DNA of 64,000 nt from Solimonas flava DSM 18980 (GTDB lineage: Bacteria; Pseudomonadota; Gammaproteobacteria; Nevskiales; Nevskiaceae), in NCBI RefSeq assembly GCF_000426685.1, contig NZ_AUFV01000017.1:1-64000 (forward strand). The letters run 5' to 3'. The position numbers and the translations under genes were made by a program. Of the stretch, positions 9,542 to 36,461 are shown one piece after another. Position 1 is the first letter of the stretch, and each line of letters starts with the position of its first letter. The notes under the pieces were generated by a model. It did no database searches, was not told the DNA's origin, and worked only from the letters and a program-made list of their open reading frames with translations.

Positions 9542-9577
9542 ATGATCAAGGCCCTCATCACCGACACCGAAGGGTGA
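9542..9577 (+). pseudogene. Diverged duplicate of the first 11 codons of mtnC
   Basis: ATG at 9542 begins MIKALITDTEG followed by TGA, versus MIKAIVTDIEG at the true mtnC start (9678). The 33-nt coding portions differ at five positions. This copy lies 10 bp after the mtnD stop, the spacing expected for an operon partner, so it looks like the ancestral gene start. It is now cut off by the repeat that begins at 9572. It cannot encode a functional enzyme. Confidence 0.8.
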
Positions 9578-9646
9578 GCCGGCCCCTCACGAAGATCCGG
9601 TGGACATTCGCGCCGGCGAGCGCCCGGCCCGGGATGGCCGGGCTGG
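9572..9646 (+). repeat. Double-hairpin repeat, copy 1 (mtnC locus)
   Basis: This ~75-bp unit begins GGGTGAGC. It holds an imperfect hairpin with a GGT loop (9590-9610) and a perfect one, GCCCGGCC-CGGGAT-GGCCGGGC (9622-9643). It aligns along its whole length with 35445-35522 (minus strand) at ddl. At both loci it lies between two copies of the start of the downstream gene. I do not recognise a named repeat family. Confidence 0.75.
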
Positions 9647-9677
9647 ACCCCGCGCCCGGCACGGCTCAGGAAGAAAA

Positions 9678-10352
9678 ATGATCAAAGCCATCGTCACCGA
9701 CATCGAAGGCACCACGTCCTCGATCGACTTCGTCCACGAGACGCTGTTCCCGTACGCCAGGCAGCGCCTGCGCGGCTTCCTGCGCGAGCAGGCGGGCGAC
9801 GATCAGGTCCAGCACCTGCTCGACGACGTCGAGCAGGTCGTCGGCCGCGATCTGTCGATCGACGAGGCGGCGGACGTGCTCGAGCAGTGGATCGCCGAGG
9901 ACCGCAAGATCACGCCGCTCAAGGCATTGCAGGGCCTGATCTGGAAGATCGGCTACGAGAACGGCGAACTGCAGGGTCACGTCTATGCCGACACGCCGGC
10001 ATGCCTGCGCCGCTGGCATGCCGACGGCAAGGCGCTGTACGTCTACTCGTCGGGCTCGGTCGACGCGCAGAAGCTGATTTTCGGCCATACCGCCTACGGC
10101 GACCTGACTCCGCTGTTCTCCGGCTACTTCGACACGCGCATCGGCGGCAAGCGCGAGGCGGATTCGTACCGCGCGATCCTGCGCGAGATCGGCCTGCCGG
10201 GCGACGAGGTGCTGTTTCTCTCCGACGTCGGCGCCGAGCTCGACGCGGCGCGCGCCGCCGGCCTGCGCACCTGCCAGTTGCTGCGCGACGCCAAGGCGGT
10301 CGCGGCACCGGCACATCCGCAAGCCGCCGACTTCAACGCCGTTCCGCTCTGA
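9678..10352 (+). CDS. mtnC: Enolase-phosphatase E1
   Basis: A 224-residue HAD-superfamily enzyme that enolises and dephosphorylates the diketo-phosphate of methionine salvage, giving acireductone for MtnD. HAD motif I is DIEGTT (residues 8-13), motif II is SSGS (about 121-124), and motif III/IV are in GKREADSYR and LFLSDVGAELDAA. The ATG at 9678 follows a CAGGAAGAAAA ribosome site; a GTG at 9600 would add 26 residues of repeat sequence and is unlikely. The first 11 codons are duplicated upstream at 9542, with the double-hairpin repeat between. Confidence 0.95.
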   Translation: MIKAIVTDIEGTTSSIDFVHETLFPYARQRLRGFLREQAGDDQVQHLLDDVEQVVGRDLSIDEAADVLEQWIAEDRKITPLKALQGLIWKIGYENGELQGHVYADTPACLRRWHADGKALYVYSSGSVDAQKLIFGHTAYGDLTPLFSGYFDTRIGGKREADSYRAILREIGLPGDEVLFLSDVGAELDAARAAGLRTCQLLRDAKAVAAPAHPQAADFNAVPL

Positions 10353-33660: not shown

Positions 33661-34428
33661 TCAGTGGCTCTCCTTCTTCTGTTTCGGCGGCGTGATCCAG
33701 CCAACCGAGAATCCATTGGTGTAGCGCAGGTCGACGTACTTCACGTCGGCGATGCGATCCTTGAGCGCGCGCTCGGCGGCGCCGAGCAGCATGTCCGTCT
33801 TTTCCTGCGGGTCCTCGCGCCCGAAGCGCAGCTCGACCCCGCCCGCCGTCCGCGCGGTCCATTCGCCGCGCGCGTCCTGCCCCAGTCCCTGCAGCGGAAA
33901 CGAGGACTGGATCAGGCGGACGCTCAACGCCCGGAACATCTCGGCAACCGTCGCCTCGTGGCCCGTCGGCCCCGACAGCTGCGGCAGGCCGTCCGGCACT
34001 TCGCCCGGCGCCGGCCTGAACACGCGCGCATCGGCATCGAGCAGCGCATCGTCGCCCCAGCGCGCGAACGGCACGCGCTCCCAGGCACGCACGCGCACCG
34101 TCGCCGGCCAGACGCGCTCGACGCTGGCGCGCGACGTCCACGGCAAGGCCTCGACCGCTTCGCGCACGGCGATCAGATCGAGATCGCCGAAGCGGCGGTC
34201 GATCAGCGGCCGCGCCGCCGCGTCGATGTCCGCCAGCTTTAGTCGCGAGAAGCGACCTTCGACCTGCAGGCGCGCGACCGGCTCGCGACTGCCGAATTCG
34301 AGCGCGCTCCAGCCGGCGCCGATCACGGCGAGGAACGCGGCGACGCCGAGCGCCAGCATCAGATGCCGGCGCAGCGGGGTGGACTCGAAATCGAAGGCGT
34401 CGTCGGCGGTCATGGCGTATGCGGTCAT
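33661..34428 (-). CDS. ftsQ: Cell division protein FtsQ
   Basis: A 255-residue bitopic membrane protein linking early and late divisome parts. One transmembrane helix (about residues 24-44, LMLALGVAAFLAVIGAGWSA) is followed by a POTRA domain (VARLQVEGRFSRLKLADI...) and the beta domain ending VDLRYTNGFSVGW. The ATG at 34428 overlaps the ddl stop (ATGA); a second ATG at 34413 is five codons in. Confidence 0.95.
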   Translation of the reverse strand: MTAYAMTADDAFDFESTPLRRHLMLALGVAAFLAVIGAGWSALEFGSREPVARLQVEGRFSRLKLADIDAAARPLIDRRFGDLDLIAVREAVEALPWTSRASVERVWPATVRVRAWERVPFARWGDDALLDADARVFRPAPGEVPDGLPQLSGPTGHEATVAEMFRALSVRLIQSSFPLQGLGQDARGEWTARTAGGVELRFGREDPQEKTDMLLGAAERALKDRIADVKYVDLRYTNGFSVGWITPPKQKKESH

Positions 34429-35381
34429 CCGCCCCCCTCGTCCAGCGTGTCTTCGAGGATCGCCCAGCACAGCGACGCGTAATCGATGCCGCGCGCCTTC
34501 GCCGCCATCGGCACGAGGCTGTGCGAAGTCATGCCGGGCACGAGGTTGGCCTCGATCAGCCACGGCTGGTCGTCGCCGTCGAGCATGAAGTCGATGCGGC
34601 CCCAGGTCTTCGCCCCGAGAATCTCGAACGCGCGCAGGCAGATCGCCTGGACGCGCGCTTCCAGCGCTGCATCGAGACCGCTCGGGCACTCGTAGCGCGT
34701 GTTGTCCGACAGGTATTTGGCGTGATAGTCGTAGAACTCGGCGTCCGGAACGATGCGGATCGTCGGCAGCGCCTCGACGCCGAGGATCGCGCAGGTGAAT
34801 TCGTGACCCGGCTGGCGGCTGGCGACGAAGCGCTCGGCCATCACCACGCGGCCATGCTCGCCACGCGCGAGCTGCCAGGCCTCGCGCAGCTGGGCGGCCG
34901 ATTTCACCTTGCTGACGCCGACGCTCGAGCCCTCCTCCGACGGCTTGATGATCAGCGGGAAGCCGAAGCGCGCCGCGGCCTCGTCGAGGTCGCCCTCGCG
35001 CTCGATCCACAGCCAGTCCGGCGTCGGCAAACCCTCGGCCTTCCACATGCGCTTGGTGCGCAGCTTGTCCATCGCCAGCGCCGAAGCCAGCACGCCGCTG
35101 CCGGTATACGGAATGCCCTGCAGTTCGAGCGCCGCCTGCACCGTGCCGTCCTCGCCACCGGTGCCGTGCAGGATGTTGAAGACGCGGTCGTAGCCTTGCG
35201 ACTTCAGGTTCAGCACGATCTCGGGCGTGGCGTCGACCAGCGTCGCGTCGACGCCGCGGCCGAGCAGCGCGGCATGAATACCCTCGCCGCTCCACAGCGC
35301 GACCTGGCGCTCGCTGCTCCAGCCGCCCGCCAGCACGGCGACGCGACCGAAGTCCTTGGGATTGTGGGTCTTCCTAGCCAC
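34425..35381 (-). CDS. ddl: D-alanine--D-alanine ligase
   Basis: A 318-residue ATP-grasp enzyme that makes D-Ala-D-Ala for the MurF step. Conserved segments are HGTGGEDGTVQAALELQGIPYTG, the ATP-grasp Lys in KPSEEGSSVGVSKV, and WGRIDFML...PWLIEANLVPGMT near the end. The start is GTG at 35381 (VARKTHNPKDFGRVAVLAGG). An almost identical gene start, [20 protein letters not shown], lies upstream at 35580-35521 and overlaps the murB stop. The two copies are separated by a double-hairpin repeat, so the working start seems to be a rebuilt one. Confidence 0.95.
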   Translation of the reverse strand: MARKTHNPKDFGRVAVLAGGWSSERQVALWSGEGIHAALLGRGVDATLVDATPEIVLNLKSQGYDRVFNILHGTGGEDGTVQAALELQGIPYTGSGVLASALAMDKLRTKRMWKAEGLPTPDWLWIEREGDLDEAAARFGFPLIIKPSEEGSSVGVSKVKSAAQLREAWQLARGEHGRVVMAERFVASRQPGHEFTCAILGVEALPTIRIVPDAEFYDYHAKYLSDNTRYECPSGLDAALEARVQAICLRAFEILGAKTWGRIDFMLDGDDQPWLIEANLVPGMTSHSLVPMAAKARGIDYASLCWAILEDTLDEGGG

Positions 35382-35444
35382 GCGCGACGCCTCCGGCGGC
35401 TCGGCGCCGCCATCCCTGGCGCGACGGCATCTGTCCATCGCGCC

Positions 35445-35522
35445 CCGGCCCGGCCATCCCTGGCCGGGCGTTCGCGTCCGCGCGAAGTGCCACCGGCACT
35501 TCGCAGGCGCGGCCGCTCACCC
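35445..35522 (-). repeat. Double-hairpin repeat, copy 2 (ddl locus)
   Basis: It begins GGGTGAGC, like the mtnC copy. It has a perfect 10-bp hairpin, GCGAAGTGCC-GGT-GGCACTTCGC (35482-35504), and an 8-bp hairpin, GCCCGGCC-AGGGAT-GGCCGGGC (35448-35469). A third hairpin with the same AGGGAT loop, CGCC-AGGGAT-GGCG (35408-35421), follows in the unmatched arm towards ddl. The whole unit lies between two copies of the ddl start. Confidence 0.75.
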
Positions 35523-35580
35523 AGCCGCCCGCCAGCACGGCGACGCGACCGAAGTCCTGCGGATTCGTCGTGCGCCTCAT
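35521..35580 (-). pseudogene. Duplicate of the first 20 codons of ddl, coupled to murB
   Basis: ATG at 35580 starts [20 protein letters not shown]; the ATG overlaps the murB TGA (ATGA), the junction seen throughout this operon. Its last 37 nt (35557-35521) are identical to 35355-35319 inside ddl, while the first 23 differ. The frame stays open through the repeat for 66 further-diverging residues in total, ending at TAG 35374, just inside the ddl start. It looks like the ancestral ddl start, displaced by the insertion. Confidence 0.8.
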
Positions 35581-36457
35581 GCGGCTTCTCCCACGATGCG
35601 GACTTCCGGCTCGAGGCGGATGCCGGTCTTGTCGAAAACGGTGTTCTGGATGTGCGCGATCAGGCGCTCGACGTCGGCCGCGCGCGCGGTCTCGTCGGTG
35701 ACGATGAAGTTGGCGTGCAGCATCGAGACTTCGGCACCGCCGAGGCGGCAGCCCTTCAAGCCGCACTGCTCGATCAGACGCGCGGCGTGCTCGCCGGGCG
35801 GATTGCGGAAGGTGCTGCCCGCCGTCGCCCGACCGACCGGCTGCGTCGCCTTGCGGCGCGCAAGCCAGGCTTTCATGTCCGCCTCGGCCCGGCCGTCCGC
35901 GTCGGGCGTGAACCGAAAGCGCGCGGCGACGAAGCCGGCGGCATCGGCCGGCAGCTCGACGTGGCGATAGCCGTAGCGGAACGCCGACTTCGGCCGCCAG
36001 ACCGTCGAGCCGTCGCGGCGCATCACCTCGACCTCGGTGACAACGTCCCAGGTCTCGCCGCCGTGCGCACCAGCGTTCATCGCCAGCGCCCCGCCGACCG
36101 TGCCGGGAATACCGGCGAAGAAGCCGGCGCCGGCGAGCCGGTGGGCGACGACGGTCTTGGCGAGCCGCGCGCAGTGCGCGCCGGCCTCGGCCGTGACGGT
36201 CAGGCCGTCGACCTCGATCGCGTCGAGCGCGCCGTGCAGGCCGATCACGGTGCCGCGCACGCCGCCGTCGCGAACCAGCAGATTGCTGCCGAGGCCGAGC
36301 CACAGGATCGGCTCGTGCGGCGGCAGGCCGCGCACGAACGCCGCCAGCGCCTCGCGCGAAGCCGGCTCGAAATAGCGGTCGGCGGGCCCGCCGACGCGCC
36401 AGGACGTGTGCCGCGCCATCGGCTCGTCGCGGCGCTCGGTGCTGTGCAGCGGCGCGC

Positions 36458-36461
<4 letters not shown>
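35577..36461 (-). CDS. murB: UDP-N-acetylmuramate dehydrogenase
   Basis: A 294-residue FAD enzyme that reduces UDP-GlcNAc-enolpyruvate to UDP-MurNAc. The FAD-binding segment [14 protein letters not shown]...[15 protein letters not shown], the [19 protein letters not shown] motif and the catalytic Ser in [10 protein letters not shown] are present. Its ATG overlaps the murC stop. Downstream it overlaps the duplicated ddl start rather than ddl itself. Confidence 0.96.

Follow-up and report, generated by a model that had tools for sequence, protein, structure and literature searches.

The window, a 64,000-nucleotide stretch of the 4.46-Mb genome of Solimonas flava DSM 18980 (G000 among the 11 Solimonas genomes compared, G000 to G010), carries murB and ddl one after the other on the minus strand, with an insert at their junction on either side of which the start of ddl is found. 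The features of this junction are as follows:

35577..36461, minus strand: murB (NCBIfam PRK13905.1, 361 bits), the stop of which overlaps the old ddl start (ATGA)
35374..35580, minus strand: leader ORF of 68 aa, from the old ddl start through the element; its TAG ends GTGGCTAG, the GTG of which is the new ddl start, and the overlap with this start is 8 nt
35521..35565, minus strand: U, the upstream of the two ddl start segments, located at the original murB junction (repeat comparison)
35405..35521, minus strand: the whole ddl element (covariance model, 114.8 bits; junction between 35521 and 35520)
35470..35520, minus strand: HP1, a long hairpin with covariation, from GTGAGC to GCGAAC (sequence and alignment)
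35448..35469, minus strand: HP2, a hairpin with an AGGGAT loop (sequence and alignment)
35404..35422, minus strand: HP3, a hairpin with an AGGGAT loop (sequence and alignment)
35390..35394, minus strand: GGAGG in the element tail, 8 nt before GTG, the likely ribosome-binding site of the new ddl start (read in the sequence)
34425..35381, minus strand: ddl, D-alanine--D-alanine ligase, from the presumed new GTG start (NCBIfam PRK01372.1, 387 bits, cut-off 243)
35319..35363, minus strand: V, the downstream of the two ddl start segments, continuous with the ddl body (43/45 identical to 35521-35565)

A preliminary description of this DNA had recognised two starts of the same gene, and both are present: the upstream ATG at 35580, which overlaps the murB stop by ATGA as described, and VARKTHNPKDFGRVAVLAGGW from 35381. 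By repeat search, 35509-35565 aligns with 35307-35363 (57 nt at 88%); the perfect repeat noticed earlier is indeed identical, but reads as 38 nt (35558-35521 = 35356-35319) and not 37. As had been proposed, the upstream frame does not reach ddl in frame: it runs for 68 aa to a stop codon at 35376-35374, and its product has no NCBIfam match. Hairpins do follow the upstream start, three of them rather than two, and the insert has a fold z of -3.25.

The same insert is found in S. variicoloris (G010), where the ddl protein of strain DSM 15731 shares 99% identity (best segment) with that of the window, and S. soli (G004) has two tandem units, so that the arrangement is not the artefact of one assembly. 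The element sits after GGCTGG, that is, after ddl codon 20. In S. terrae (G008) the insert is absent and the ATGA-type start continues straight into ddl; this is the comparison with an insert-free relative that had been suggested as a check, and because S. terrae provides the empty site, the idea of an insertion after codon 20, which left ddl with a twofold 5' end, holds. In G003, G001, G009, G002, and G006, the 130 nt leading up to codon 20 of ddl contain no second start; in G005, ddl was not found by search. In the more distant species G007, an insert likewise follows this GGCTGG; its element has diverged, and G007 has a ddl start duplication of its own. Since a four-gene tree (798 columns) separates G007 from G000, G010, and G004 and places the insert-free G008 and G003 near G000 (support for the placement of G004 being only 55), the same codon has probably been hit at least twice, or the insert has been lost several times. 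In a Nevskiaceae MAG, an HP2-type copy lies downstream of ddl (L010, at about 4250).

The ddl element is one member of a dispersed family. A covariance model (R1; 117 positions) built from 17 copies gave 192 matches in 9 of the 11 genus genomes (G000 18, G001 39, G002 39, G003 22, G004 24, G005 1, G007 4, G008 32, G010 13, the match in G005 being weak at E 0.001) and no match in G006 and G009. Within the bacterial family, 51 of 58 genomes from all 12 genera carry the element (E up to 1e-6); in a draw from the class it occurs in 25 of 369 genomes including G000, i.e., in 24 of 368 others (E up to 1e-8), and in other families of the order in 0 of 3. From the 192 matches, the 150 listed were grouped into 122 clusters and fetched with flanks, and all cluster counts given here are counts among the matches listed; R1 was also run on 100 of the fetched loci. 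Like bacterial MITEs, the element is short (about 100-125 nt), dispersed, and multi-copy.

The hairpin structure is supported by covariation. In an alignment of 128 copies, which was fitted to the model and hence leans towards it, 95.5% of paired cells can pair (72.5% after shuffling), both positions vary in each of the 27 pairs, and covariation scores 0.430, compared with 0.099 after shuffling and no more than 0.058 when the pairings are slid. In HP1, pairing is kept while the sequence varies. Element ends of the form GTGAGCC...GGCTCA were recognised by eye, and in the mtnC copies alone; across the aligned copies, the 5' end is paired within HP1. Neither the stretch in the window nor the 16 loci scanned gave an Rfam match to the element at gathering score, and a text search of open-licence PMC papers, which does not match by sequence, found no account of it; one catalogue of stem-loop families describes taking out tRNA-related clusters (PMC2267715).

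The element shows a preference for both site and orientation. GG directly precedes it at 102 of 122 sites among the matches listed, against a flanking background of 7.9%, with the reservation that one of the two GG bases is a model column and GG is thereby somewhat favoured by the search; the remaining 20 of the 122 listed sites lack it. Among the matches listed, the upstream gene is sense to the element in 93 clusters and antisense in 23 (p 3.6e-11), as judged, like the gene-end counts below, by gene calls from a small codon-usage script and not from annotation.

Duplicated flanks were sought by aligning the 110 nt before each element to the 260 nt after it, with a threshold score of 16 or more. 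A repeat across the element was found at 28 of 117 testable genus clusters among the matches listed (five of the 122 could not enter the test), compared to 0 of 348 cross-pairings, nearly all of which were made within one genome. In 27 of these 28 listed cases the repeat lies flush with the 5' junction of the element. Random positions in the same loci gave a repeat of that score and geometry in 11 of 740 trials, none of them flush with the pseudo-junction, and for this reason the ddl duplication is not attributed to chance. The duplications span about 20 to 100 nt, neither short nor of fixed length, and in three cases with wide windows U equals V at 68/68, 76/76, and 98/100 positions, the last being the longest. 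A further repeat test, which included tRNA D-loop loci, left out L210, L248, and L252, and skipped L246 for its short flank, gave 16 of 47 observed against 7 of 281 cross-pairs at or above threshold; its control is contaminated by real tRNA similarity, and the argument therefore relies on the 28/117 and 11/740 tests. Flush duplication in 28 of 122 clusters among the matches listed, with none at 47 gene-end and 47 other clusters, also means that target-site duplication, as in MITEs, is found at a minority of sites. Where it is present, the long flush duplication is well supported.

The geometry can be read directly at leuC, where the element lies antisense to the gene. The site is filled in G000, G010, and G003 and empty in G008, G004, G002, G001, and G007, and the empty sites agree both with the left flank plus first copy and with the second copy plus right flank. 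At ddl, likewise, the U copy is joined to the original left flank and the V copy to the original right flank, which is the geometry of a target-site duplication, a long one, that recurs at other loci and is seen against empty sites at leuC. The notions that the element had brought a new gene start, or that the target had been repaired, thus become unnecessary. Comparison with empty sites and with parallel cases shows that the element entered after GG and that the right flank has kept a complete start. The resulting hypothesis, to which we assign a probability of roughly 80%, is that the ddl insert is a non-autonomous mobile element of three hairpins, whose insertion after GG duplicated the target and so kept the gene start, with the old start now serving as a coupled leader. 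Such a short element would usually insert right after a GG in the target, at ddl after the GGCTGG of codon 20; the event would duplicate at least 45 nt of the target on the 5' side, such that the right flank keeps the whole ddl start.

The window contains another copy of the element in front of mtnC, with the same architecture (9542-9709) and the mtnC start duplicated:

9542..9573, plus strand: relic upstream mtnC start (MIKALITDTEG, then the TGA of the element; read in the sequence)
9574..9669, plus strand: second window copy of the element, diverged and ending GGCTCAG (78% match to the ddl element over 9573-9646; ends by eye)
9669-9673, plus strand: GGAAG, which could serve as ribosome-binding site of mtnC (read in the sequence)
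9678..10352, plus strand: mtnC, beginning at the downstream start (NCBIfam TIGR01691, 277 bits, cut-off 128)

The mtnC start is duplicated in 8 of the 11 genus genomes and not in G005, G009, and G006. Among nine upstream mtnC copies, five are closest to the downstream copy of their own genome, two tie, and two are not, and for the codon hit in eight genomes shared descent combined with gene conversion would fit as well as repeated insertion. At the mtnC junctions of G009 (L274) and G005 (L272), which have no duplicated start, HP3- or HP2-like fragments precede mtnC and are possibly decayed copies. At mtnC, ddl, leuC, ppc, pilU, sufB, and accC, a search for an insertion polymorphism separating G000 from G010 showed the insert or element-like sequence in both genomes throughout. 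The names mtnD, leuC, accC, exbD, purT, rdgB, and SelT-like are presumptive, being our own reading of the sequences; for mtnD there was no NCBIfam match at 1e-20.

Further starts are duplicated at mutL in G003 (S. terrae has a similar element before mutL, at a contig end), at a ligase-associated exonuclease gene in S. terrae, and at rng (ribonuclease G) in a genome of another family, where three starts follow each other in 215-nt units (L231, 1426-1856) with ATGA overlaps between the leader ORFs and the next start. Structured RNAs are affected as well. Glycine-riboswitch aptamers flank the element on both sides in four of eight loci scanned (L094, L095, L101, and L149; upstream 33.6-39.5 bits, downstream 61-68 bits), and the riboswitch repeats are identical over 76 nt in G003 and over 68 nt in G002. 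Tandem glycine aptamers are common in nature, and these cases are therefore weaker than the others. In 11 of 28 class loci (L230-L257), the GG of a tRNA D-loop lies at the junction (L235, L238-L244, L247, L249, and L251). The 5' part of the tRNA is duplicated flush with the element in eight of these 11 (L235, L238, L240-L244, and L251), while the duplicate is 4 nt short in L247, visible by eye only in L239, and not detectable in L249; L246, at a contig end, shows it by eye.

An alternative origin of the second start is that the element first came to lie at the murB-ddl junction and that a later local tandem duplication, by slippage or unequal exchange, copied the start together with the element. 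Tandem units do exist, namely the two at S. soli ddl and the 215-nt units at rng; more than one match is present in 24 of 122 clusters among the matches listed; and gene-end insertions show no duplication. However, the repeat is flush with the 5' junction in nearly all listed cases, at single-element sites too, and also at leuC with its antisense element. We consider later duplication an improbable origin of the ddl arrangement. A target duplicated on insertion remains the preferred reading, and the tandem units at S. soli ddl and rng imply that repeat turnover would be needed besides insertion. As only 28 of 122 clusters among the matches listed show the flush duplication, a separate tandem duplication after insertion may also apply.

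Many copies have no duplicated flank. The stop of a sense gene is the TGA of the element itself in 47 of 122 clusters among the matches listed, in 43 of the 47 with a Gly codon before it, and none of these gene-end clusters has a duplication, compared to 28 of the 75 others listed. Genes ending in this way are not truncated: the sufB and ppc proteins match their family profiles through to the final position, and nusG stops one position short of it. In four clusters among the matches listed, the element lies inside a gene call, again without duplication, and in purT of S. soli and rdgB of S. terrae it is read in frame. These observations bring in a refinement of the preferred reading, not exclusive with it, according to which long duplications are rare by-products of a process that usually duplicates zero to a few bases, and selection keeps those long ones that save a start or a structured RNA. 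The split between gene-end and other clusters and the in-frame purT and rdgB insertions argue for it; the three sites at which U and V are identical or nearly so imply, by contrast, that long events are not very rare, and gene-end relics could have decayed. On balance we give this refinement slightly less than an even chance. In the mechanism favoured here, long duplications are probably not obligatory; they occur mainly at sites where a start or structured RNA stayed intact, and at gene ends, where the TGA comes from the element, there is none.

At ddl, a leader ORF of 68 codons now begins at the old start; it would be translated through the element and end over the new GTG start, so that ddl is most likely translated by termination-reinitiation coupling, aided by the GGAGG in the element tail. 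Comparable read-through leaders overlap the new start by 4-8 nt: at ddl in four genomes, at mtnC in G003 and G008, in two units each of rng and the exonuclease gene, and at an MBL-fold gene in G003 (from coordinates; the ORF search for that gene had no match). A HAD-type gene in G002 departs from this pattern, its leader stopping 64 nt short of the start. Overlap is thus seen in six of seven loci counted as independent, array units and sister species not being independent. The overlaps suggest translational coupling, but for some genes only, ddl included, because other leaders stop at the TGA of the element after 11 or 16 codons (mtnC of five genomes, mutL) or at an early TAG (mtnC of G002, after nine codons).

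A regulatory role is suggested by the loops of HP2 and HP3, which read A-N-G-G-A-Y in the 128 aligned copies, with A-N-G-G-A at 92-98%, GGA at 96-98%, and the commonest base at N reaching 38-40%; this conservation is partly a matter of ascertainment, because all seeds carried such loops. An ANGGAN hexaloop is seen in RsmE-bound RNA (PMC7652899). Pairs of ANGGAN motifs 30-60 nt apart occur in 19 of 26 class loci (of 28, with L248 and L252 left out) against 82 of 1300 shuffles. All 11 genus genomes have a csrA gene, an expected finding of little evidential weight. Taken together, the loops suggest that the transcribed element may bind CsrA/RsmA. The element, whose two ANGGAY hairpins are spaced by about 44 nt, could even be mainly a CsrA/RsmA-binding module and owe its spread to bringing genes under Csr control or to titrating CsrA. 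The loops with their free N, the spaced pairs, the ubiquity of csrA, the excess of sense orientation, and the position of HP3 directly before the likely Shine-Dalgarno sequence in several mtnC copies are in line with such a module. On the other hand, the model was built from copies with such loops, the HP2 stem is GC-rich and 9 bp long whereas most selected CsrA ligands are described as having at most four contiguous pairs (PMC7652899), hairpin DNA recognised by a transposase would conserve its loops too, many copies lie at gene ends, and the pair is absent in 7 of the 26 class loci. We regard this role as possible but doubtful. Known CsrA/RsmA-binding hairpins share the ANGGAN hexaloops, two of which the element carries in ANGGAY form, but the element differs in being dispersed and mobile, in not forming a sponge RNA gene, and in its longer HP2 stem, with binding being putative. 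The ddl copy of G007 has no recognisable ANGGA hairpins and the mtnC copy of the window has lost that of HP3; both are nevertheless kept, which counts against the three-hairpin element as preferred here.

Candidate movers were sought in the 11 genus genomes. RVT_1 occurs in 3 of 11 and not in G000, G003, G004, G008, and G010; Y1_Tnp exceeds its cut-off in 5 of 11, with no match in G001 (39 copies) and G004 (24 copies); and the IS1634 transposase exceeds its cut-off in 0 of 11, with one weak match in G002. Neither reverse transcriptase nor Y1 transposase nor IS1634 transposase tracks the element across these genomes; no mobilising enzyme was found among these three, which counts against the preferred reading. 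Variable duplication length combined with one precise junction resembles target priming, and mobilisation by a reverse transcriptase in this manner, or by a REP/RAYT system with its Y1 transposase, would be conceivable. Against it stand the scarcity of RVT_1, the copy-rich G001 and G004 without a Y1 match, and the GTAG or CGTC tags that define REP elements (PMC3733652) and are not seen here; we consider either route very improbable. REP and other GTAG- or CGTC-tagged palindromes, the GTAG type of which is found mostly in Gammaproteobacteria, are likewise short and dispersed, but the element has three hairpins instead of a single palindrome beside a tag, and no dependable Y1 gene in its carriers.

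The preliminary description had also held that the insertion differs from usual IS behaviour. This is true in general, but long and variable direct repeats of the target (8-514 bp) are on record for IS1549 and IS1634, for which no mechanistic model had been proposed according to the 2008 paper (PMC2266710). The likeness lies in the long target repeats of variable length made on insertion, here found at a minority of sites; these insertion sequences are, however, 1.5-2 kb long and encode a transposase, whereas the element measures about 110 nt, has no family-matched protein, in itself or as an IS1634 transposase in the genome, and usually follows GG. Rickettsia palindromic elements (RPE), treated in a review of MITE-like repeats in genes and RNA genes (PMC2229807), are palindromic, 105-146 bp long, and inserted in frame in protein genes and also in RNA genes. 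Their target duplication is marked "?" in a table of that review, while the element described here duplicates gene starts and tRNA 5' parts.

In its widest form, the proposal would be of a gammaproteobacterial mobile element with RNA structure and a CsrA/RsmA-type hairpin pair, which is inserted mostly in sense after GG (in gene starts, last Gly codons, tRNA D-loops, and riboswitch ends) by an undescribed enzyme, with duplications of 0 to about 100 nt, and which leaves essential genes unbroken, coupled to a leader ORF and possibly under Csr control. As a whole this is speculative and rather unlikely to hold in every part. The narrower reading, if correct, would show a mobile element entering essential and tRNA genes without breaking them, via a duplicate of the interrupted part, and would add a second possible case of long variable target duplications to IS1549/IS1634. 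If the hairpins bind CsrA, the element could moreover provide a route for the spread of post-transcriptional control sites. At a practical level, gene callers may misplace starts and call spurious short ORFs at element sites. In four loci (L175, L177, L106, and L295), a further hairpin (e.g., GCGTTTG...CAAACGC) sits in the HP2 loop, as if one repeat had targeted another.
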